64,000 nucleotides of DNA from Thermosynechococcus sp. HN-54 (GTDB lineage Bacteria; Cyanobacteriota; Cyanobacteriia; Thermosynechococcales; Thermosynechococcaceae): contig NZ_CP098039.1 of the NCBI RefSeq assembly GCF_023650955.1, positions 1,736,001-1,800,000 of the forward strand, given 5' to 3'. The translations under genes and the position numbers were made by a program. This document shows positions 44,523-59,853 of the stretch, piece by piece (position 1 is the first letter of the stretch; every line of letters begins with the position of its first letter). Under the pieces are notes generated by a model that saw only the letters and a program-made list of their open reading frames with translations, was not told where the DNA came from and ran no database searches.

Positions 44523-46685
44523 TTAGCGCTGTCGTGGAGGCTGGAGAATCTGATTTTGGATGGCTGGCGGCATACTCCCCGGTGTTGGCGTGTACTGATA
44601 GCCAAACCCCGCATTCTGAGTGTCATCAACAATCTTTGGTGTCACCATCACCACCAGTTCATTGCGTTGACGCTGGTTGCTCTCCCGGCGGAACAGCCGC
44701 CCCAACAGGGGAATATCACCAAGAATCGGAATCTTCGTGACTAGTGAGCGATCCTGATCTTGAATAATGCCCGCTAGCATCAAGGTTTGGCCATCACGCA
44801 AGCGAATCCGCCCCGACTCCATCCGCCGCTGGGAGAGAAGCGTCCCCGTGGACGGGTTAGCTACGCCCGGAAAGACCACCGAATAGGTACCGCTCGGAGC
44901 ACTCACTTCGGGCGAGAGTTGCAGCGTAATGAAGCCATTGTCGTCAATTTGATCGACGGTGACATTAAAAATCACACCCGCGGGTCGAATGATCGGCCGA
45001 ACTGTCTGAGACTGAAGAGCTGCTCCCGATCCTGTTCCTTGACTATCCGTAGTTGACTCAATACCAGAGAAAATTTCTTGGGTCAAATTAACTTGAGCAG
45101 CACTCCCCTCTTGAATTACAAGGGTTGGGTTCGTGAGGATTGTGGCATTCCCCGTTTCAATGGCAAATTGAATTTGAGCAAAAAAGTCACTGAGAAAATT
45201 ACCCACTGGTGTGCTGGGAATTGGTGGCAAAGGCCCAGGGGTCAAACCACCCACGTTAGGTGTGGTGCCACGGATAACAGTGAGTCCATCAGCGTTGAAG
45301 ATAGCTCCCCAAAGGCTGCTGCCAAAGTTAGTAATTAAGTCTGCATTTGCTCTCCGCCCTCGCAACAGGTTCACATCAATAAACTTGACATTCACCATCA
45401 CCTGCCGCTTACGGATGTCAAATTGCTGAATCAATTGCGTAGCAATTTCCACTTTGCGGGGGGTGCCAATCAATGTAATGGTGTTGGTGCGGGGATCGCC
45501 GACAACTTCTAGGCCTTTTAGCAGGGAGCTGCGACAAATTTGGCCCACCACACCGCCCGCTGCTGCTGGGACTTGCAGCTGTTCACAGCCCGTTGGCGCG
45601 TCTTGGCGACCAGTATCTGGCAAGTTGGCACCATACATTTCCAACAGTTGCACGGCGCCCAATTGTAAGTCACCCTCGCGAACTCGAGTTTCACGGTTGA
45701 GAGCGGTTTGAGCCGTCGTTGAGGCCTGTGCGCCCTGAGCAGTGCCGCCAGAGCCGATGGTGCCACCGGTTTGGGCAAGGGAGGCAATTTCCTGTGTGGT
45801 TGCTGAGGCACCAAATACCCGCATTTGATTGAGGCGAATGGTGCGAACAATACGATTTTGGGCATCGGGAGGTAGGGTTTGGCCGACAAAGATGGTGCGA
45901 CCTTGACGATTGGCTTTAAGGTTGGTTACCCGCAACACATAGTTGAAAACATCTTCAACAGACTCATTTTCAATATCGAGGGAGATGGTCGCCCCGCCCC
46001 CTGCCTCATTGCCTTCCGGAAAGACAACGTTCATATTGGCTGCGCGAGCCAGCAAAGAAAGCACTTCCCGTACAGGGGCTTCCCGCAAGAGTAAACGCGG
46101 AATCCGCTGATTGGTGCCCAATTGGATGACATCCGGATCGGCATTGACGGGACTAATGAGCATGTCGCCGACAGGCGGTGGCACCGGCCGGGGTAAAAAT
46201 GGCGGAACAGCACTCGGTCCGGGAGGCATGGCCATCGGTTGGCCATTGGGGGGCACTTGGGAGCCAGCGGCGCCTTGAGCGGTAATGAAGTTAATTTGCA
46301 GGCTGTCCCGTCCTTCACGGATCACTTCGCTAATGGGGGCGGCACTGATGCCATTGACGGTGACGCGGATGGTTGTAGCATCGAGTTGCACCACCTCTAC
46401 GGAGGAAATACCGGGAATGGGGTTATCTTGGCGGAAGGCACCTCCTTGGGGTAGACGCAGTTGGCTATTGGTAATGTCAGCAATGGAGGCATTGCCGCGA
46501 TTGACCGTGAAAACCGCTGGCCGCAGATTCCCCTGAACGTTGAAGAGGAGCTGGATACCGTTGGGGGCCGTTACCAGACGCACTCCCGTAATTTCCGTTG
46601 CTGTGGCCCAGGTGGGGGTTTGACTGGCAGCAACAAGGGCGGTTGTGGCGACCCCTAAGCCGAGACGATGTAAAAGCTGACTCAC
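44523..46685 (-). CDS. pilQ: Type IV pilus secretin PilQ with AMIN domain
   Basis: 720 residues from GTG 46685 with GAGGAG upstream. A signal peptide is followed by an AMIN domain (about 30-135) for peptidoglycan binding, a Pro-rich linker, an STN/N0 and N1 region (about 190-275), a NolW segment (about 290-430), and the secretin pore (about 445-690) with ILTNPTLVIQEG and VPILGDIPLLGRLFR. The C-terminus is short and Pro/Gln-rich. PilQ is the outer-membrane gate for the pilus. It is the last gene of pilM-N-O-Q. No pilP is in the operon. Confidence 0.96.
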   Translation of the reverse strand: MSQLLHRLGLGVATTALVAASQTPTWATATEITGVRLVTAPNGIQLLFNVQGNLRPAVFTVNRGNASIADITNSQLRLPQGGAFRQDNPIPGISSVEVVQLDATTIRVTVNGISAAPISEVIREGRDSLQINFITAQGAAGSQVPPNGQPMAMPPGPSAVPPFLPRPVPPPVGDMLISPVNADPDVIQLGTNQRIPRLLLREAPVREVLSLLARAANMNVVFPEGNEAGGGATISLDIENESVEDVFNYVLRVTNLKANRQGRTIFVGQTLPPDAQNRIVRTIRLNQMRVFGASATTQEIASLAQTGGTIGSGGTAQGAQASTTAQTALNRETRVREGDLQLGAVQLLEMYGANLPDTGRQDAPTGCEQLQVPAAAGGVVGQICRSSLLKGLEVVGDPRTNTITLIGTPRKVEIATQLIQQFDIRKRQVMVNVKFIDVNLLRGRRANADLITNFGSSLWGAIFNADGLTVIRGTTPNVGGLTPGPLPPIPSTPVGNFLSDFFAQIQFAIETGNATILTNPTLVIQEGSAAQVNLTQEIFSGIESTTDSQGTGSGAALQSQTVRPIIRPAGVIFNVTVDQIDDNGFITLQLSPEVSAPSGTYSVVFPGVANPSTGTLLSQRRMESGRIRLRDGQTLMLAGIIQDQDRSLVTKIPILGDIPLLGRLFRRESNQRQRNELVVMVTPKIVDDTQNAGFGYQYTPTPGSMPPAIQNQILQPPRQR

Positions 46686-46780
46686 GATGCTTGACTCCTC
46701 ACAAATGCCACCAAAGGTATGAAAAGAGAATTACGACTTACTCCCAAGACACTCTACGCTGCTTCTTTGCTTGCCATGCG

Positions 46781-47515
46781 CTATTGCTGTTGTTGTTGCG
46801 GTTGTCCTTGCTGCTCACCTCCTTGGGGTTGACCCTCTTGGGGCGGTGCTGCCAAAGCGGCAATTTCTTCAGGGGTTAGGGGCACATAGGCCATGAGCTT
46901 AAACGTGGTAATCACTTCGTCGGGTTTGTCAGCAATCAGTTCCATCGTTAGGTTGTTAATCACGAGGAAGTTCTGCTGCTGATCAATTTTTTGCATGATT
47001 TGCAAAATACTGGGGAATGGCCCTTGAATCGTAACGTTGGTTACCTGTTGTTTTAGTTTGGCATTTAATTCTGGGCCAAGGGAGCCATCTTGGACAATTC
47101 CTGAAGCTGCACTATCCGGTTCAAACGTAGTCAGTTGGGCACCGCTTGTAACAATCAGCCGGTTGATGTCAAGAAGGAGCGTGTCAAGGGCTTCTTGGGT
47201 GGCAAAGAGCGATCGCACATCACGGTTTTCCTGTTTGGCTCGCTCTAATCCTGTGACCACATCATTGAGTTGCTTCAAGATAACCTCCCGTTGGGAGAGG
47301 TCATTTTCCTGCTGGGCAATCTCCTCCTGGAGCTTGGCGGCTTCCTCTAGTTTGGGCGCAATAAGAAGACTCCCCAAATAGACTGCTGCCCCCAACCCCA
47401 ATAGGGCAATGAGGACGCCACTGACAACGGGTGTCAGGGTAATGCCAAAGACCGTCGGATAATTTGGTGCGGGTTCCTCAATCGGCGGGCCGCCAAAATC
47501 GCCGGTTAGGGTCAT
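46781..47515 (-). CDS. pilO: Pilus alignment protein PilO
   Basis: 244 residues. One transmembrane helix (about 32-52, SGVLIALLGLGAAVYLGSLLI), a coiled coil (about 55-100), and a ferredoxin-like periplasmic domain (about 150-215; VTIQGPFPSILQIMQKI). The last 20 residues are Gln/Gly-rich and disordered. It forms the inner-membrane ring with PilN. Its ATG overlaps the end of pilN (ATGA type). The gap to pilQ is 95 bp. Confidence 0.9.
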   Translation of the reverse strand: MTLTGDFGGPPIEEPAPNYPTVFGITLTPVVSGVLIALLGLGAAVYLGSLLIAPKLEEAAKLQEEIAQQENDLSQREVILKQLNDVVTGLERAKQENRDVRSLFATQEALDTLLLDINRLIVTSGAQLTTFEPDSAASGIVQDGSLGPELNAKLKQQVTNVTIQGPFPSILQIMQKIDQQQNFLVINNLTMELIADKPDEVITTFKLMAYVPLTPEEIAALAAPPQEGQPQGGEQQGQPQQQQQ

Positions 47516-48213
47516 TGCTCTACCACTCCTTTTTCTTTGAGAAATTGAATGCGCGCCACCAGTCCTTCGACGCCATTGGCGGCAAGTTCCTCAAGGAGTT
47601 CCGATGCCGGCACGCTGGCGATCGCGGTCTTAATACTAAAGGAAACCCTTGCGGTTGTGTCCTCTTCGCCCTGTGGGTTTGCCCGCTCTGCTTTAACCAG
47701 TTGGGTGGCCTTGCCATCAAAAAAGGGAGAGCGATTTTGCAGGAGCAGTAGAAAGTCACTCACGGCATCAAAGGAGACGGCCGTTCCCTCGATCGTTAAC
47801 TCTTGGGGTGTGGCTCCCCCTTGGGTAATTTTGCGAATTTGCACCCCTGCCGGCGTTTGAGTGGCCATATTCCGCATCACCGCCGACCAAGGTTTGACCT
47901 GATTAAAGACAGTGGCCAAGGCTTTGGTTTCCGCTGCAATTTGCTCCTGCTCTTTTTTAATTTGATCCATGCGTTGCAAATCGCGAGAAATGGCGGCGAG
48001 GCGATCTTGAATCGACTTTTGCTTACTCGTCAGTTGTTGTAGCCAAAGATTGGCACCCACTGAGCCGAGGAGCGCCAGCCCCACAAAAAAGAGAGCAGCC
48101 ACACCACCAATAATAATTGGTACGTTATCAAATCCGCGAGCTGCGGTTGCGGCAGTGGCCATGCCCCCCACTTCGGGACGTTCTTTGAGGAGGTTAATCT
48201 CAATTGAGTACAT
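47512..48213 (-). CDS. pilN: Pilus alignment protein PilN
   Basis: 233 residues from ATG 48213 (MYSIEINLLKERPEV), with AGGAG eight bases before. The N-terminal short peptide (INLLKERPE) docks into PilM. A transmembrane helix (about 33-58) is followed by a coiled coil and a ferredoxin-like periplasmic domain (LTIEGTAVSFDAVSDFLLLL). The frame reaches to 48264, overlapping pilM, but the INLL motif and ribosome site set the start. It pairs with PilO. Confidence 0.92.
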   Translation of the reverse strand: MYSIEINLLKERPEVGGMATAATAARGFDNVPIIIGGVAALFFVGLALLGSVGANLWLQQLTSKQKSIQDRLAAISRDLQRMDQIKKEQEQIAAETKALATVFNQVKPWSAVMRNMATQTPAGVQIRKITQGGATPQELTIEGTAVSFDAVSDFLLLLQNRSPFFDGKATQLVKAERANPQGEEDTTARVSFSIKTAIASVPASELLEELAANGVEGLVARIQFLKEKGVVEQ

Positions 48214-48224
48214 AGGGAATGCTC

Positions 48225-49316
48225 CTAAGCGCCACGCAGACTCAGACCAATCACCGTGCCCCAAGCAGGACGTTTTTCGAGGGGAATCTCCTCTGGCGTT
48301 TGCAGTCCCAGCAAACTAATCGGGTCAACCAATGTGGTGGGATAGTTCAGCCGCTGACTAAAAAACTCATCGACTTGACCAATACTGGCACCGGGGCCTG
48401 CCAGCAGTAACTGGGATACCTCTAGACTTTCTCCTTGGTTGAGGTAAAAGTCAATGGAGCGGCGGATTTCGTCCGCAAGATCGGAGAGAACGCGCAAAAT
48501 AGCTGCCCCACTGGGGTTGAGTGCGCCGGTGACATCCATTGGCTCTAGGGGAACCGTGAGACTCTCGATCAGGTCAACTCCCATGGAGGGAGGCAGGTTC
48601 ATGGCACGGCTGATGGCCTCTTGCATCCGTTCTTTGCCAATGGGCACCTTGCGGTTGAACTGGGGAATACCATCCTTGACAATGCTAATCTCTGTGCCCT
48701 CATCACCAATATCAATAATTGCTGCTGCCTCACCCACAAACTGTTGCAGTGAATCTCGCAGGGTGCGCATGAGGGCAAAATTGGTTACTTCAAGCGCTGT
48801 CAGTTGTAAACCTGCTTGGGTAAAGGCATTGATGTAGGCATCGGTCACCTCGCGGGGCGTACCTACCAGCAGAATCTCCACCCGCTCAATGCCATCTTCA
48901 TCAAGGGAGGTGCCCAGCTTTTGATAGTCAACATCAGCCTCTTCACGGGGAAAAGGAAGGTACAGCGGGGCTTCCTGCATGAGAACCACTTCCCGCAACT
49001 CGTAGTCAGGCAATTCTGCGGGCAGGCGAATCAGGCGAATCACCGCTTCATTCATGGGAATGGCACTGATCACCTCTTTTTGTTTGATGCGCTTATCCTC
49101 AATTCCTTGACGGATAGCATCGGCAACGGCAGTGGTGTCAATGATTCGGCCTTCTTCAATGGCACCTTCACTCAAGGGGACTGAGGCCATCGCTGTGATT
49201 TTCAGACCCTGCTTTTGCCGCTGAAGCTGCACGATGTTGACCCGCTCTGGGGTGAGTTCAATCCCCAAGCCCTGCTTTGGTTTTGCAAATAGGTTGCCAA
49301 GCACAATATCACCCAC
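48225..49316 (-). CDS. pilM: Pilus assembly ATPase-fold protein PilM
   Basis: 363 residues, actin-like (FtsA/MreB fold). Motifs are GLGIELTPERVNIVQL near residue 17, DIGDEGTEISIV near residue 195, and the C-terminal LAGPGASIGQVDEFFSQRL. PilM sits on the inner face of the membrane, binds the PilN tail and links the ring to the motor. It is the first gene of pilMNOQ; its promoter should be in the 273 bp upstream (49317-49589), where ATCAC/GTGAT arms at about 49418-49431 form a small palindrome but no clean promoter is seen. Confidence 0.94.
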   Translation of the reverse strand: MGDIVLGNLFAKPKQGLGIELTPERVNIVQLQRQKQGLKITAMASVPLSEGAIEEGRIIDTTAVADAIRQGIEDKRIKQKEVISAIPMNEAVIRLIRLPAELPDYELREVVLMQEAPLYLPFPREEADVDYQKLGTSLDEDGIERVEILLVGTPREVTDAYINAFTQAGLQLTALEVTNFALMRTLRDSLQQFVGEAAAIIDIGDEGTEISIVKDGIPQFNRKVPIGKERMQEAISRAMNLPPSMGVDLIESLTVPLEPMDVTGALNPSGAAILRVLSDLADEIRRSIDFYLNQGESLEVSQLLLAGPGASIGQVDEFFSQRLNYPTTLVDPISLLGLQTPEEIPLEKRPAWGTVIGLSLRGA

Positions 49317-52181: not shown

Positions 52182-53879
52182 GTGCCTTGGCAACAGCGGA
52201 AATGGCGACGACAGGGAGTGTATCTGCTGTTATTTCTACTGGGGTTGTTAATTGCAGCAGTGGTGCTCACGCAATTGCGATCGCACCCCATTCTCCGCCC
52301 CTCCCTGAATCCCCTCCCCCAACATCCTTACATTGCTGTCCACATGAACCACTCCCAAGCCCACAGCTATCAAGAACCCTACCGCCCCTATACCCGTGAA
52401 GGGGAAGACCTTGAGGCAATCATGATTGAGCAGATTGCCAAGGCGCAAAAGACCATTGATGTGGCGGTGCAGGAGTTTCGTTTACCGAATCTGGCAAAAG
52501 CTCTAGCAGCACGGCAGCAGGCAGGGGTACGGGTAAGAGTGATAATGGAAAATACCTACACTGCCCCTTGGGCAACGTACAGTGCTGCTCAAGTGAGCGC
52601 CATGGATCCAAGAATGCGGGAGCGCTATAACGATTGGAAAGCCCTAGTGGATACCAATGGCGATGGTCAACTTAGTGCCGCCGAACTCAGCGATCGCGAT
52701 GTGCAGACAATCCTCAACGAAGCCAAAATTCCTTGGATTGACGACACGGCGGATGGCTCCAAGGGCAGCATGCTCATGCACCACAAGTTTATTGTCATTG
52801 ACAATCGCCAAGTGATTGCGACCACGGCGAACTTTACCCTCAGTGATGTGCATGGCGACTTGGGACGACCCGATACCCGTGGCAATGCCAACTCCCTCTT
52901 GGTGATTGATAACCCCGCCGTAGCGCGCCTATTTACCGAGGAATTTAACATTATGTGGGGGGATGGTCCCGGTGGTCAGCCTAACAGTCGCTTTGGGGTC
53001 AAAAAGCCGCTGCGTCCTCCTCAACGGGTTGCCGTGGGCGATGCCATGGTCACGGTGCGCTTTTCGCCGACCCCGCGATCCCAACCTTGGTCCGCCTCCA
53101 CCAATGGCTTGATTGGCCAAACACTGACTCGGGGGCGTCAAAAAATTGATATGGCACTTTTTGTCTTGTCAGATCAGGAACTGTCCTACGTTTTAGAGGA
53201 ACGCCACAACCAAGGGGTCAGCATTCGCGCCCTCATTGACTCAGGATTTATCTACCGAGACTTTAGCGAAGCCTTGGACATGATGGGCGTAGCAATGGCC
53301 AATACTGCCCAAGCCCGACAGGGAAAGTGCTACTACGAAGCTGGCAACCGCCCGTGGCAAAACCCCATTCAAACGGTGGGTACCCCCCTACTGCCGGAGG
53401 GGGATAAGCTGCACCATAAGTATGGCGTGGTGGATGATCGCACCGTCATTGTCGGTTCCCACAACTGGTCAGAGGCAGCCAACCGCGGCAATGATGAATT
53501 CTTGCTGGTCATTGAGCATCCCACTGTAGCGGCTCACTACGAACGGGAGTTTGAGCGGCTCTATAGCAATAGTCGTCTGGGTTTGCCGCAGCATATTCGC
53601 GATCGCATTCAGGAACAACTGACCGCCTGTGGCGGCAACATTGCCACTCGACCGGCAACCTCCTCCGGAAGTCGTCCCAGCAGCCCCACCACACGGGTGA
53701 ACTTGAACACAGCCACTGCTGCTGAACTGCAAACTCTACCGGGTGTCGGCCCCAAACTGGCAGCAGAAATTATCCGTGCTCGCGAGCAAAAGCCGTTTCA
53801 ATCGTTGGCGGATTTAGATGCCGTCCCCGGTGTTGGGCCGAAGCTCCTCGAACGATTGCGCGATCGCGTGACGTGGTAA
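52182..53879 (+). CDS. Membrane-anchored phospholipase-D-like protein with EF-hand and ComEA-type HhH tail
   Basis: 565 residues from GTG 52182. Order: transmembrane anchor (about 12-32); PLD domain 1 with H200-K202-D207 (MHHKFIVID), interrupted by a canonical EF-hand loop at 157-168 (D157, N159, D161, Q163, S165, E168); PLD domain 2 with H411-K413-D418 and GSHNWSEAA; a Ser/Pro linker (about 488-505); and a helix-hairpin-helix pair (about 506-563; LNTATAAELQTLPGVGPKLA ... VPGVGPKLL) as in ComEA. It should be a phosphodiesterase, probably a calcium-affected nuclease, outside the plasma membrane and able to bind DNA. A PLD lipase role is the alternative. GGGAGAG precedes the start. Confidence 0.9.
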   Translation: MPWQQRKWRRQGVYLLLFLLGLLIAAVVLTQLRSHPILRPSLNPLPQHPYIAVHMNHSQAHSYQEPYRPYTREGEDLEAIMIEQIAKAQKTIDVAVQEFRLPNLAKALAARQQAGVRVRVIMENTYTAPWATYSAAQVSAMDPRMRERYNDWKALVDTNGDGQLSAAELSDRDVQTILNEAKIPWIDDTADGSKGSMLMHHKFIVIDNRQVIATTANFTLSDVHGDLGRPDTRGNANSLLVIDNPAVARLFTEEFNIMWGDGPGGQPNSRFGVKKPLRPPQRVAVGDAMVTVRFSPTPRSQPWSASTNGLIGQTLTRGRQKIDMALFVLSDQELSYVLEERHNQGVSIRALIDSGFIYRDFSEALDMMGVAMANTAQARQGKCYYEAGNRPWQNPIQTVGTPLLPEGDKLHHKYGVVDDRTVIVGSHNWSEAANRGNDEFLLVIEHPTVAAHYEREFERLYSNSRLGLPQHIRDRIQEQLTACGGNIATRPATSSGSRPSSPTTRVNLNTATAAELQTLPGVGPKLAAEIIRAREQKPFQSLADLDAVPGVGPKLLERLRDRVTW

Positions 53880-56183: not shown

Positions 56184-57899
56184 ATGATCAAGAAACTGGT
56201 GCGCTCACTCAAACGCCGCTATCCCCATCCGGGGTATCGGCAGCGGGGCTTTACCCTCCCATTAGTGTTGGGCATGGGGCTGATCATGATTGTGGTTGCC
56301 CTAACGCTGATCTCGCGATCGCAACTGGATGTGAGCACCGCTAGTTTGCAAAAACAAACCCAGCAAGCCTTTGCCGTGGCTGAGGGGGGCATGGCACGTA
56401 CTCTAGGCTTACTCAATGGCAACTACCAGATTCTGCTGCGCCGCACCTACAACCCTGCCACCAATACCAACTTTAATCCCCCCAGACCCTACCTCATTGA
56501 TCGGTCAACGGATGCCACGAAAATTGGCCAGCCCAATACCTCAGGTCTCAACGTTCCCGCCGTCAATCAATGGACAGCAGCGAGCCTTGGCTCCGATGCC
56601 CCCCCCTGCTTTACCCTCGATAACCTGAATACGATTGTCCTCAACGGCACCATTGGTACACCGGTGCAAGGCAATTACCGCATTCTCTCCTATCTCTACG
56701 ATGCGCCGACACAAACGGGGCACCTGTTGATTGAAGGCCGCCTGCCCAATAATTCGCCGGCCAATGCCTTCATCTTGCAAAAGATGGTGATTACGGATCG
56801 CAGTGTCCCTGCTAACTTCCCTGGACTCTTAGCACAAAGCATTAACCTCGGCAACAACGATGTCTTTGGCACCGTCAACGGCAATGTCATTTGCACCAAC
56901 CCTGCCAACTGTGTCGTGCCCCAAGCCGAGTGCCAAAATGGTCAACCCACCCAACAGGGACTGCGCAGTGCCGTGGGAGCGCTGAATAACGCCATTATTG
57001 AAGGCACGATCGCCATCAACAAGATTAACCTACCGCCCTTTCCTTCGGCGCCCAATGCAGTGGGTGGTTCCGTGCTAGGGAGTGTTCCCCTGACCACGCT
57101 GCCCAGTTGGTTACCCACCAGTCAAGTCACTGACTTTCAGCAAGCCCTGCAAGCGGCAGGAGGATACAGTCAAGGGGCCTACGCCAACTTTCCAGTACCA
57201 GGCATAGGTAATAATCCCCCTCAGGACAGACCTGATATTACTGGTAATACAAGCAACCTGACTTTCCCACGACCAGGCGATCGCCCCTACGTTGACCCTA
57301 ACCCCAACATTCCCTTCTTTATCCCTGATCCTCTACGACCCGGGGAACGAATTGTGAATCCAGAGAAAGTCTATTACGCCTATCGCATCCGTAACATCAA
57401 CCTGAGTGGCAATGAAAAAGTAACGTTCAACACCAGTAACTACGCCATTCGCCTCTACGTCAGCGGTGACATCAGCCTCAGTGGTCAAGCGGGGATTGAC
57501 AACACCTGTAGCCCCAATAGTTCCACCTGCGGTACCGGAGCTAATATGGGACTTCCCAGTGGCGTCGGCACCCCCGATCGCCTGCGGATTTATGGTAACC
57601 CCCCAGACCCCAACAACAGTACCCCCGATCAATCCTTTACCCTGAGTGGTGGCTCCACCGCAGGGAGTGTCTTTATCTATGCGCCCGATGCGCAGGTAGG
57701 CATCAATGGTGGCAGTCGCGAGCCAGATATCTTTGGCGCCGTTTGGGCAAAAACATGGAACGGTTCGAGTTCCAACAATGCTGAAATTCGGGTGCCCGAT
57801 CGCCTGCCCGAAGCCTTGGGTGGGGAATATGCCAACGCTTCAATTGTGGTAGCACGCACCACGGAAGCCAGCAACTGGAACCGCTTAGCGCAGTACTAA
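56184..57899 (+). CDS. Large minor pilin, GspK/PilX-like (no Glu5)
   Basis: 571 residues. The prepilin leader ends at G22 and the mature protein begins FTLPLVLGMGLIMIVVALTLI, so it lacks the Glu at position 5, as is typical of the tip subunit GspK/PilX. A large extracellular domain of more than 500 residues is rich in Asn, Pro and Gly, with cysteine pairs (ICTNPANCVVPQAEC; NTCSPNSSTCGTG). It is the first of four pilin-like genes on one strand. ATG has AGGAGA upstream. It may cap the pilus and touch surfaces or DNA; this is inference. Confidence 0.85.
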   Translation: MIKKLVRSLKRRYPHPGYRQRGFTLPLVLGMGLIMIVVALTLISRSQLDVSTASLQKQTQQAFAVAEGGMARTLGLLNGNYQILLRRTYNPATNTNFNPPRPYLIDRSTDATKIGQPNTSGLNVPAVNQWTAASLGSDAPPCFTLDNLNTIVLNGTIGTPVQGNYRILSYLYDAPTQTGHLLIEGRLPNNSPANAFILQKMVITDRSVPANFPGLLAQSINLGNNDVFGTVNGNVICTNPANCVVPQAECQNGQPTQQGLRSAVGALNNAIIEGTIAINKINLPPFPSAPNAVGGSVLGSVPLTTLPSWLPTSQVTDFQQALQAAGGYSQGAYANFPVPGIGNNPPQDRPDITGNTSNLTFPRPGDRPYVDPNPNIPFFIPDPLRPGERIVNPEKVYYAYRIRNINLSGNEKVTFNTSNYAIRLYVSGDISLSGQAGIDNTCSPNSSTCGTGANMGLPSGVGTPDRLRIYGNPPDPNNSTPDQSFTLSGGSTAGSVFIYAPDAQVGINGGSREPDIFGAVWAKTWNGSSSNNAEIRVPDRLPEALGGEYANASIVVARTTEASNWNRLAQY

Positions 57900-57917
57900 A
57901 CACCGGAGGCGATGTTG

Positions 57918-58709
57918 ATGACTCACCATAAACTCTATTTTCACTGGCTGGTGCAACAACGTTCCCAAGGCTTTACCCTTGCGGAGGTCTTGGCTTCCAT
58001 TCTGGTGATTAGCCTCTTTACCCTAGCGGCCATGCAGGCCATTGTGGTGGCTGCCTTTCTGCAAGCGGATGCCCGCAAATTTGCCGAGGCCAGTAACTGG
58101 ATTCAAGATGATTTGGAAAATATCAAAATTGTTGCCTACGATCTGTGCCAGACGAAGTTTGCCCACCGCAAATTGGCTGCTCCTGCCCAAGGCACGGATA
58201 CAACCCTCACGTTAGCCCTTATCCAACCGGGTGAAAGCGACTACGATCAAGCGATGCCCCCAGAGTATCGCGCGGGGGGTGCCTGTCCAGTGACATCGCC
58301 AACGGATGGTTTTCGAGTGGGCGATCGCGTCCTCATTGGTTCAGATTCTGGGACGCGACGGATTACCGCTATTTCTGGCAACACCATCACAATTACCCCC
58401 GCTGTGGGAGGCTATCGGGGCGCGGGAACTCGGGTGTATGCCCGCTGTCGTATTCAGCCCGACGAAACCAACGGGATTGATGGCGGGTTTGGCGCCTACC
58501 TGCAAACGCTGATTCCCCCCTTGAACAGTAATAACAACAATCGTCCGATTGTCAATGACACCTTTACATTAACCCGTACGCCAACCACCCGCACCGAAGC
58601 GCCCTTCCAAACTTTGGAACTGGCCTATTCTGTGCGCGACAGTAACAACCGCGTCGTTGCTCAACTATCAACCGAGGTGGTGCCCAATGCGTTTTTCCGC
58701 TGTCCGTGA
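57918..58709 (+). CDS. Minor pilin, GspI/PilV-like
   Basis: 263 residues from ATG 57918, eight bases after GGAGG (ATG 57912 is too close). The prepilin leader ends at G18, mature start FTLAEVLASILVISLFTLAAM with Glu5. The extracellular part has a few Cys and a beta-rich middle (TDGFRVGDRVLIGSDSGTR). It overlaps the next gene by 23 bp. Second of the four-pilin operon. Confidence 0.85.
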   Translation: MTHHKLYFHWLVQQRSQGFTLAEVLASILVISLFTLAAMQAIVVAAFLQADARKFAEASNWIQDDLENIKIVAYDLCQTKFAHRKLAAPAQGTDTTLTLALIQPGESDYDQAMPPEYRAGGACPVTSPTDGFRVGDRVLIGSDSGTRRITAISGNTITITPAVGGYRGAGTRVYARCRIQPDETNGIDGGFGAYLQTLIPPLNSNNNNRPIVNDTFTLTRTPTTRTEAPFQTLELAYSVRDSNNRVVAQLSTEVVPNAFFRCP

Positions 58710-59193
58710 GCAGGGCATGACCCTGATTGAAATCTTGATTGTTCTAACGGTAGCAGCTATTTTAGCGGTGGCTGTCACTCCGAGCTTTCTCTATTGGCTA
58801 GAAACGCAGCGGGTCAACCAAGCCCTCGAAAGCCTAGAGGGGGCACTACGGGAAGCGCAGCGGGAGGCCATGCGGCGTAACCAAGCCTGTCGAGTGACGA
58901 TTAACACCGGCACCAATCCCACCATCGTGGGCAATCCACCCGAATGTCTGCCTAATGGGCCGCGCCAACTGGAAAACGTGACCTTGCGTCGAGGAACAGG
59001 GACGGCCTCGGTGCGATTTGGCTTTCAGGGGCGCACCAGTAGTACAGGCACTATTGTCATTGCTTCCACCAATAATCCCACCCTTCAGCGCTGTTTGGTG
59101 GTGTCTTTGGGATTGGGCATTATGCGCACGGGCAATTACCTTGAGACGGATACCACGGGTATGACTGCCGACAACTGTCAAGCACGTAACTAG
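58687..59193 (+). CDS. Minor pilin, GspH/FimT-like
   Basis: 168 residues from ATG 58687, overlapping the preceding gene. The leader ends at G10, mature start MTLIEILIVLTVAAILAVAV with Glu5, followed by the GspH/FimT pattern AVTPSF ... EGALREAQREAMRRN. The C-terminal part is a compact beta domain with Cys near the end. In other bacteria FimT-like pilins bind DNA for uptake. Third gene of the operon. Confidence 0.88.
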   Translation: MRFSAVREQGMTLIEILIVLTVAAILAVAVTPSFLYWLETQRVNQALESLEGALREAQREAMRRNQACRVTINTGTNPTIVGNPPECLPNGPRQLENVTLRRGTGTASVRFGFQGRTSSTGTIVIASTNNPTLQRCLVVSLGLGIMRTGNYLETDTTGMTADNCQARN

Positions 59194-59205
59194 AGGGGCA
59201 CAGAT

Positions 59206-59853
59206 ATGCAGGGCTGGCGCAGCAGCGATCGCGGCTTTACACTGACGGAGCTACTGGTGGCGGCTGCCGTTGGCAGTATTGTGGTGGCCATGAGTGGCTG
59301 GGCAATGGTGGCGATCCTGCAAAACAATCGTCGTGTGGAGGAGCAGGCCATGACTCGTATGAACCTCAGCCGTGCCCTTGACTTTATTTCCGATGATATC
59401 CGCTCAGCCATTCGCATCTCCACAACGGCACCCTCAGATTGGACAATTCCCAGTGGGGGTTACCAGTTGGTGATGTTTATCGAAAAACCAGCGGATAATC
59501 TAGAAGAACAGGACAATGGTACCTTAGCCAGTACGACTCGGGTGGCCTACTATACCCGTCCCAAGACCAGTGGTGTGGTGTGGCGAGGCCCGATGATTCT
59601 CTATCGCCAAAAAATTGGTGATTCGACCCCCAATGCATTGATTGATGGCATTGCCAGTACCAGCCCCACCTGTACAAATAATTTGGCGGGCGCCGCCGAC
59701 AGTGGCACCAACAAAGGAGGATTTCGGGTTTTTGTTCAACACAACCGCAACGTTAAGCTCTGTATTGCCGGTCTAGTGGAGTCCACAGGTACGGTTTACC
59801 AAGCAGAAACCCTCGCTGCCGTGCGATCCGGATCTGCCACACCCACTCCCTAG
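59206..59853 (+). CDS. Minor pilin, GspJ/PilW-like
   Basis: 215 residues. The leader ends at G10, mature start FTLTELLVAAAVGSIVVAMSG with Glu5; the helix continues into MTRMNLSRALDFISDDIRSAIR, as in GspJ/PilW proteins. It lies 12 bp after the GspH-like gene, with GAGGGG upstream. It closes the four-gene set that together looks like a pilus initiation complex. Confidence 0.85.
   Translation: MQGWRSSDRGFTLTELLVAAAVGSIVVAMSGWAMVAILQNNRRVEEQAMTRMNLSRALDFISDDIRSAIRISTTAPSDWTIPSGGYQLVMFIEKPADNLEEQDNGTLASTTRVAYYTRPKTSGVVWRGPMILYRQKIGDSTPNALIDGIASTSPTCTNNLAGAADSGTNKGGFRVFVQHNRNVKLCIAGLVESTGTVYQAETLAAVRSGSATPTP

Follow-up and report, generated by a model that had tools for sequence, protein, structure and literature searches.

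A ComA/ComEA-type PLD protein with an inserted EF-hand as a candidate strand-degrading nuclease of cyanobacterial transformation

Introduction

What does a protein do that carries a membrane anchor, two phospholipase D (PLD) HKD motifs, an EF-hand loop and a ComEA-type DNA-binding tail in a single chain? The gene for such a protein lies in the window analyzed here, a stretch of 64,000 nucleotides from Thermosynechococcus sp. HN-54. The initial annotation read the product as a calcium-tuned nuclease at the cell surface, acting in DNA uptake or DNA scavenging. The idea of a DNA-uptake nuclease is not new, having been published in 1999-2001, as cited in PMC7690421. For the slr0197 product of Synechocystis sp. 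PCC 6803, named ComA/ComEA, a DNA-binding domain and a nuclease domain on the periplasmic side were predicted in 1999, the nuclease being an endonuclease, and the slr0197 mutant does not transform (PMC7690421); the knockout was repeated in PMC10667661. In the literature, transformation requires the gene whereas motility does not.

A nuclease activity of DNA import is elsewhere found in the channel protein ComEC, whose metallo-beta-lactamase domain has both 5'-to-3' exonuclease and endonuclease activity and is proposed to set import polarity (PMC12455585). Nearly half of sequenced ComECs are without a nuclease domain for the non-transforming strand, and handling of the second strand in those cases was stated to be open (PMC8579336). 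The lactamase-less profile is the main one in Cyanobacteria according to a survey (PMC6299819).

Results

The 565-residue chain was confirmed to combine the anchor, the two HKD motifs and the ComEA-type tail with a canonical EF-hand loop, which sits in the first PLD half (Table 1). The sole hydrophobic helix, GVYLLLFLLGLLIAAVVLT, follows a basic N-terminus and has the highest mean hydropathy within the protein (2.69 over 19 residues). This topology suggests a position at the plasma membrane, facing the periplasm, and not at the outer cell surface, where the protein had been placed. Cys383 and Cys483 are the only cysteines, and in an alignment of sequences with <70% mutual identity they were conserved in 71/71 and 67/69 sequences, respectively; judging from this conservation a disulfide may link them, in keeping with a location outside the cytoplasm. 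A membrane anchor, a nuclease domain and a ComEA-type DNA-binding domain in one chain are the features of the slr0197 type, to which we assign the gene; it is presumably an ortholog of slr0197, the two being likened by their described features. On that basis no difference from Slr0197 is known, and an EF-hand is not mentioned in the slr0197 papers found.

Table 1. Positions in the window of the ComA/ComEA-type gene, its parts and the flanking pilus genes.
Feature	Position	Strand	Basis
ComA/ComEA-type PLD nuclease ORF, 565 aa, GTG start	52182..53879	+	domain profiles
N-terminal membrane anchor, residues 12-30	52215..52271	+	top mean hydropathy and basic N-terminus; model helix 2-34
Twin PLD core, about residues 45-470	52314..53591	+	two Pfam PLDc_2 stretches; structural matches span 40-476
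EF-hand module (helix-loop-helix), residues 143-172	52608..52697	+	model; lost as a whole in six relatives
EF-hand loop DTNGDGQLSAAE, residues 157-168	52650..52685	+	conservation; shuffle test
HKD motif 1 to N217, residues 200-217	52779..52832	+	H200, K202, D207, N217 invariant 71/71
HKD motif 2 to N428, residues 411-428	53412..53465	+	H411, K413, D418, N428 invariant 71/71
Cys383, possible disulfide partner of Cys483	53328..53330 (Cys383), 53628-53630 (Cys483)	+	conservation
ComEA-type helix-hairpin-helix tail, residues 504-564	53691..53873	+	HHH_3 and TIGR00426 over cut-off
pilMNOQ, flanking	44526-49316	-	
Minor pilins, flanking	56184-59850	+	

Both halves of the core matched PLDc_2 (E 1.6e-40, 138.5 bits against a Pfam cut-off of 27), and the motifs HHKFIVID (200-207) and HHKYGVVD (411-418) supply the two HxK(x4)D per chain that define a twin-HKD PLD protein. 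Conservation was scored in 71 sequences, each less than 70% identical to the others, and the catalytic residues H200, K202, N217, H411, K413 and N428 were invariant in all of them. The protein did not reach the equivalog cut-offs of NucT (60.7 vs 297) or DrmC of DISARM (58.7 vs 133), and nothing beyond weak PLD matches came from the phage and defence libraries.

An AlphaFold2 model was built from 30 sequences, with a mean pLDDT of 84 and about 90 near the EF loop. Its top structural match was phospholipase D 7e0m (Z 33.5), and PLD3 and PLD4 matched at Z 32-33 over ~330 residues. PLD3 and PLD4 are type II membrane 5' exonucleases (PMC10783504), and PLD3 acts on single strands (PMC10783504, PMC7857491). 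Besides the predicted twin-HKD fold, the protein shares with them the type II membrane topology and the active-site residues, of which PLD3 H201, K203, N218, H416, K418 and N432 match H200, K202, N217, H411, K413 and N428 by motif. It differs in that PLD3/PLD4 are lysosomal, are about 16% identical to it and are described in PMC10783504 without an EF-hand, and the second motif of PLD3 is HKE. The modelled fold is close to PLD3/PLD4, but because the phospholipase 7e0m fits it as well as PLD3 does, the fold alone does not settle the choice between nuclease and lipase.

The EF-hand proposed within the first PLD half was borne out by the model and by ligand conservation. The loop DTNGDGQLSAAE scored below the Pfam EF-hand cut-off (E 0.011, 15.6 bits vs 25.9). 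Structure prediction had been suggested as a check, and in the AlphaFold2 model a helix (143-156), the loop and a second helix (166-172) lie within the PLD fold between strand 117-122 and HKD1, a predicted geometry that is that of an EF-hand helix-loop-helix. Shuffling the protein sequence 50,000 times produced the motif 33 times, and no other window ORF of at least 100 aa contained it. In the 71-sequence alignment, D157 and E168 were invariant in the 70/70 sequences that bear the loop, position 159 was only N or D and position 161 only D or N, whereas the remaining loop residues were variable. A wider set of 208 sequences was gathered from cyanobacterial genome contigs. All four ligands (loop positions 1, 3, 5 and 12) were kept in 202 of these, and in the other six the entire module was deleted, not eroded. 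A chance motif was ruled out by the shuffles, the model and the conservation of the ligands across the class.

That the ligands are either kept or deleted with the whole module speaks for an ion-binding site and for a genuine insertion within the PLD fold, and from its conservation the loop likely binds an ion. Of the description as calcium-tuned, it is this ion-binding half that is supported. The six relatives without the module (L274, L275, L276, L277, L182 and L180) have an intact catalytic core and are natural versions free of the ion site, so the enzyme does not depend on the EF-hand in every lineage. The chances are about even that the ion site of the EF-hand has a structural role alone and that Ca2+ does not regulate the enzyme. 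Such a site would fit a single EF-hand without a partner, ligands that are never eroded and are lost only as a whole module, and a core that stays intact in lineages without it; this reading concerns the role of the EF-hand only and is compatible with the function proposed below. No prior report of an EF-hand with ComEA or competence was found in the open-licence literature.

The tail matched HHH_3 over the Pfam cut-off (E 1.5e-19) and TIGR00426, the ComEA helix-hairpin-helix (HHH) repeat region, at 53.9 bits against a cut-off of 53.1; the whole-protein ComE/ComEA model TIGR01259 gave 57 bits against a cut-off of 152. When the domain order was sought in other cyanobacteria, the PLD core with EF-hand proved common (202/208), but the tail was present in only 104/208 and is thus optional. 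On the core tree, parsimony required at least 14 changes of tail state, at least six of them forced by well-supported branches. The half of the family that is without the tail must bind DNA another way. In genome G025, which we take to be Gloeobacter violaceus, the protein carries the EF-hand but is tailless, which makes it likely that the class inherited the core with its EF-hand from a common ancestor. The protein of G041, presumably S. elongatus PCC 6301, also had no tail, and the sole HHH_3 match in that genome was a 196-aa protein with no evident signal sequence.

Some Nostoc strains carried the tail in a broken frame. In L012 (G002, same genus as the window) core and tail lay in different frames that part near residue 470, owing either to a broken frame or to a misassembly. 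In the window genome this protein was the only ComEA-type HHH protein over the cut-off. A search there for a second ComEA gave three weaker matches, none over the cut-off: a 403-aa tRNase Z-like metallo-beta-lactamase protein with a weak C-terminal HHH_3 (L086, G000:C1:1891924), a 297-aa frame and a 141-aa frame that we take to be PsbU.

The PLD core was found in 108 of 117 drawn genomes of the class; one further match, in G067, was to HHH only. Core and ComEC occurred together in 34 of 43 class genomes, with none having the core only, one ComEC only and eight neither (Fisher 6e-8). Among 151 picocyanobacteria the corresponding numbers were 104, 6, 2 and 39 (Fisher 3e-27); both p-values are inflated by genome relatedness, and the more telling part is the pattern among PilQ-positive genomes, in which 96 had both, four the core only, one ComEC only and 16 neither. 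Seventeen genomes had the PilQ secretin without the core, and since ComEC was also absent from 16 of them, the core is tied more tightly to the DNA channel than to the pilus. The exceptions were G067, where ComEC occurs in the absence of the core, and a few genomes with the core and no ComEC.

G067 (assembly 94% complete) was, among the 43 class genomes, the sole ComEC-positive one without the PLD core. It encodes a separate HHH protein (L250, G067:C102:7721-9636, a 261-aa frame) that adjoins ComEC as in classical comEA-comEC pairs. One of the picocyanobacteria counted as core only, G131, holds only short pieces. Extra frames of ~75-130 aa matching the second HKD region only were seen at G187:C1:1330887-1342326, with several per genome in G187, and at similar picocyanobacterial places; these are single-HKD relatives or remnants. 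An origin outside the class was considered and set aside; other members of the phylum gave short local matches only and no full-length relative.

The flanking pilus genes had been offered as support for a role in DNA uptake and were given no weight. Their order recurred in one of 20 other genomes, the close relative G005; even the congeneric G010 did not share it.

The ComEC of the window genome has DUF4131 and Competence domains and neither a metallo-beta-lactamase domain nor its metal motif. In all 20 other cyanobacterial ComECs examined the HxHxDH motif was absent although the C-terminal region was kept, and a Pfam scan of nine of those 20 gave no lactamase domain over the cut-off. G067 was considered as a case with an intact ComEC nuclease and was rejected, its ComEC motif being degenerate too.

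Discussion

The protein is likely a nuclease of natural transformation, a part of the initial annotation that is supported by the Synechocystis literature, by co-occurrence with ComEC and by the ComEA tail. Strand degradation is somewhat more probable than mere cutting, and we propose the protein as a candidate strand-degrading nuclease of cyanobacterial transformation, with a rough probability of 0.55. As a twin-HKD nuclease anchored in the plasma membrane and facing the periplasm, it would act on DNA that the type IV pilus draws inward and that the HHH domain holds where the tail is present. The active site formed by H200/K202/N217 and H411/K413/N428 would degrade the non-transforming strand, probably from the 5' end, and ComEC, with its own nuclease domain decayed in cyanobacteria, would admit the other strand, which enters by its 3' end. 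PLD3 and PLD4, the nucleases closest in fold, are 5' exonucleases, which is the polarity that strand degradation requires. As a constant component of the enzyme, the EF-hand probably binds Ca2+ or a similar ion and would shape or gate the segment that precedes HKD1. We put forward more tentatively that in oxygenic cyanobacteria a Ca2+-gated, PLD3-like 5' exonuclease able to dispense with the ComEA tail replaced the ComEC nuclease domain, so that periplasmic Ca2+ would decide the conversion to single strands.

A less probable reading is a NucA-like competence nuclease, which would cut incoming double-stranded DNA to make uptake ends and leave the second strand to another enzyme or to displacement. 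It shares the genetic evidence with strand degradation and agrees with the endonuclease prediction of 1999 (PMC7690421), and endonucleases are known among the PLD nucleases, Nuc being an example (PMC10783504). However, it leaves the second strand unexplained although ComEC is without a nuclease motif, and the closest nucleases to the predicted fold are 5' exonucleases. A phospholipase or other non-nuclease periplasmic phosphodiesterase, whose loss would block competence indirectly, is improbable: the best match to the model is narrowly a phospholipase D (Z 33.5 vs 33.0), but a ComEA DNA-binding domain is fused in half of the family, and the gene tracks ComEC and not general envelope genes. A periplasmic or extracellular nuclease that scavenges nutrients from DNA independently of transformation, the other role first suggested, is very improbable because the gene tracks ComEC even among PilQ-bearing genomes and the Synechocystis mutant fails to transform (PMC10667661, PMC7690421), although anchored PLD nucleases such as lysosomal PLD3 can be purely degradative (PMC10783504).

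As a strand-degrading nuclease, the protein would resemble the ComEC metallo-beta-lactamase domain, whose proposed job is to degrade the non-transforming strand from the 5' end outside the plasma membrane (PMC12455585). In contrast to that domain, the cyanobacterial candidate is a separate protein of unrelated fold, and the lactamase domain is metal-dependent whereas PLD chemistry is not known to be. Canonical ComEA of Bacillus subtilis likewise has a C-terminal DNA-binding HHH domain, but it is a small DNA receptor without PLD or EF-hand, and in the cyanobacterial family the tail is optional. EndA of Streptococcus pneumoniae is, to our knowledge, not a PLD enzyme and has neither ComEA nor EF-hand parts. 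It is similarly a separate membrane-bound nuclease for the non-transforming strand, in an organism whose ComEC domain is seemingly inactive (PMC8579336, PMC12455585). DNaseTA of Thioalkalivibrio is also a nuclease with a ComEA-derived HhH tail, its catalytic domain being of the DNase I type (PMC4777378).

In the open-licence papers, no reports were found of the EF-hand, the optional tail or complementarity with a nuclease-less ComEC. New here are the ancient EF-hand, the optional tail, the tracking of the core with ComEC, the pairing with a nuclease-less ComEC and the PLD3/PLD4-like predicted fold.

The conserved part of the family is the nuclease and not the ComEA domain, which suggests that the name ComEA is misleading in cyanobacteria. 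Cyanobacteria belong to the half of ComEC bearers without a nuclease domain, and for the missing step this family provides a concrete candidate encoded by one gene, which sits in transformable laboratory strains and offers catalytic and EF-hand residues to mutate.
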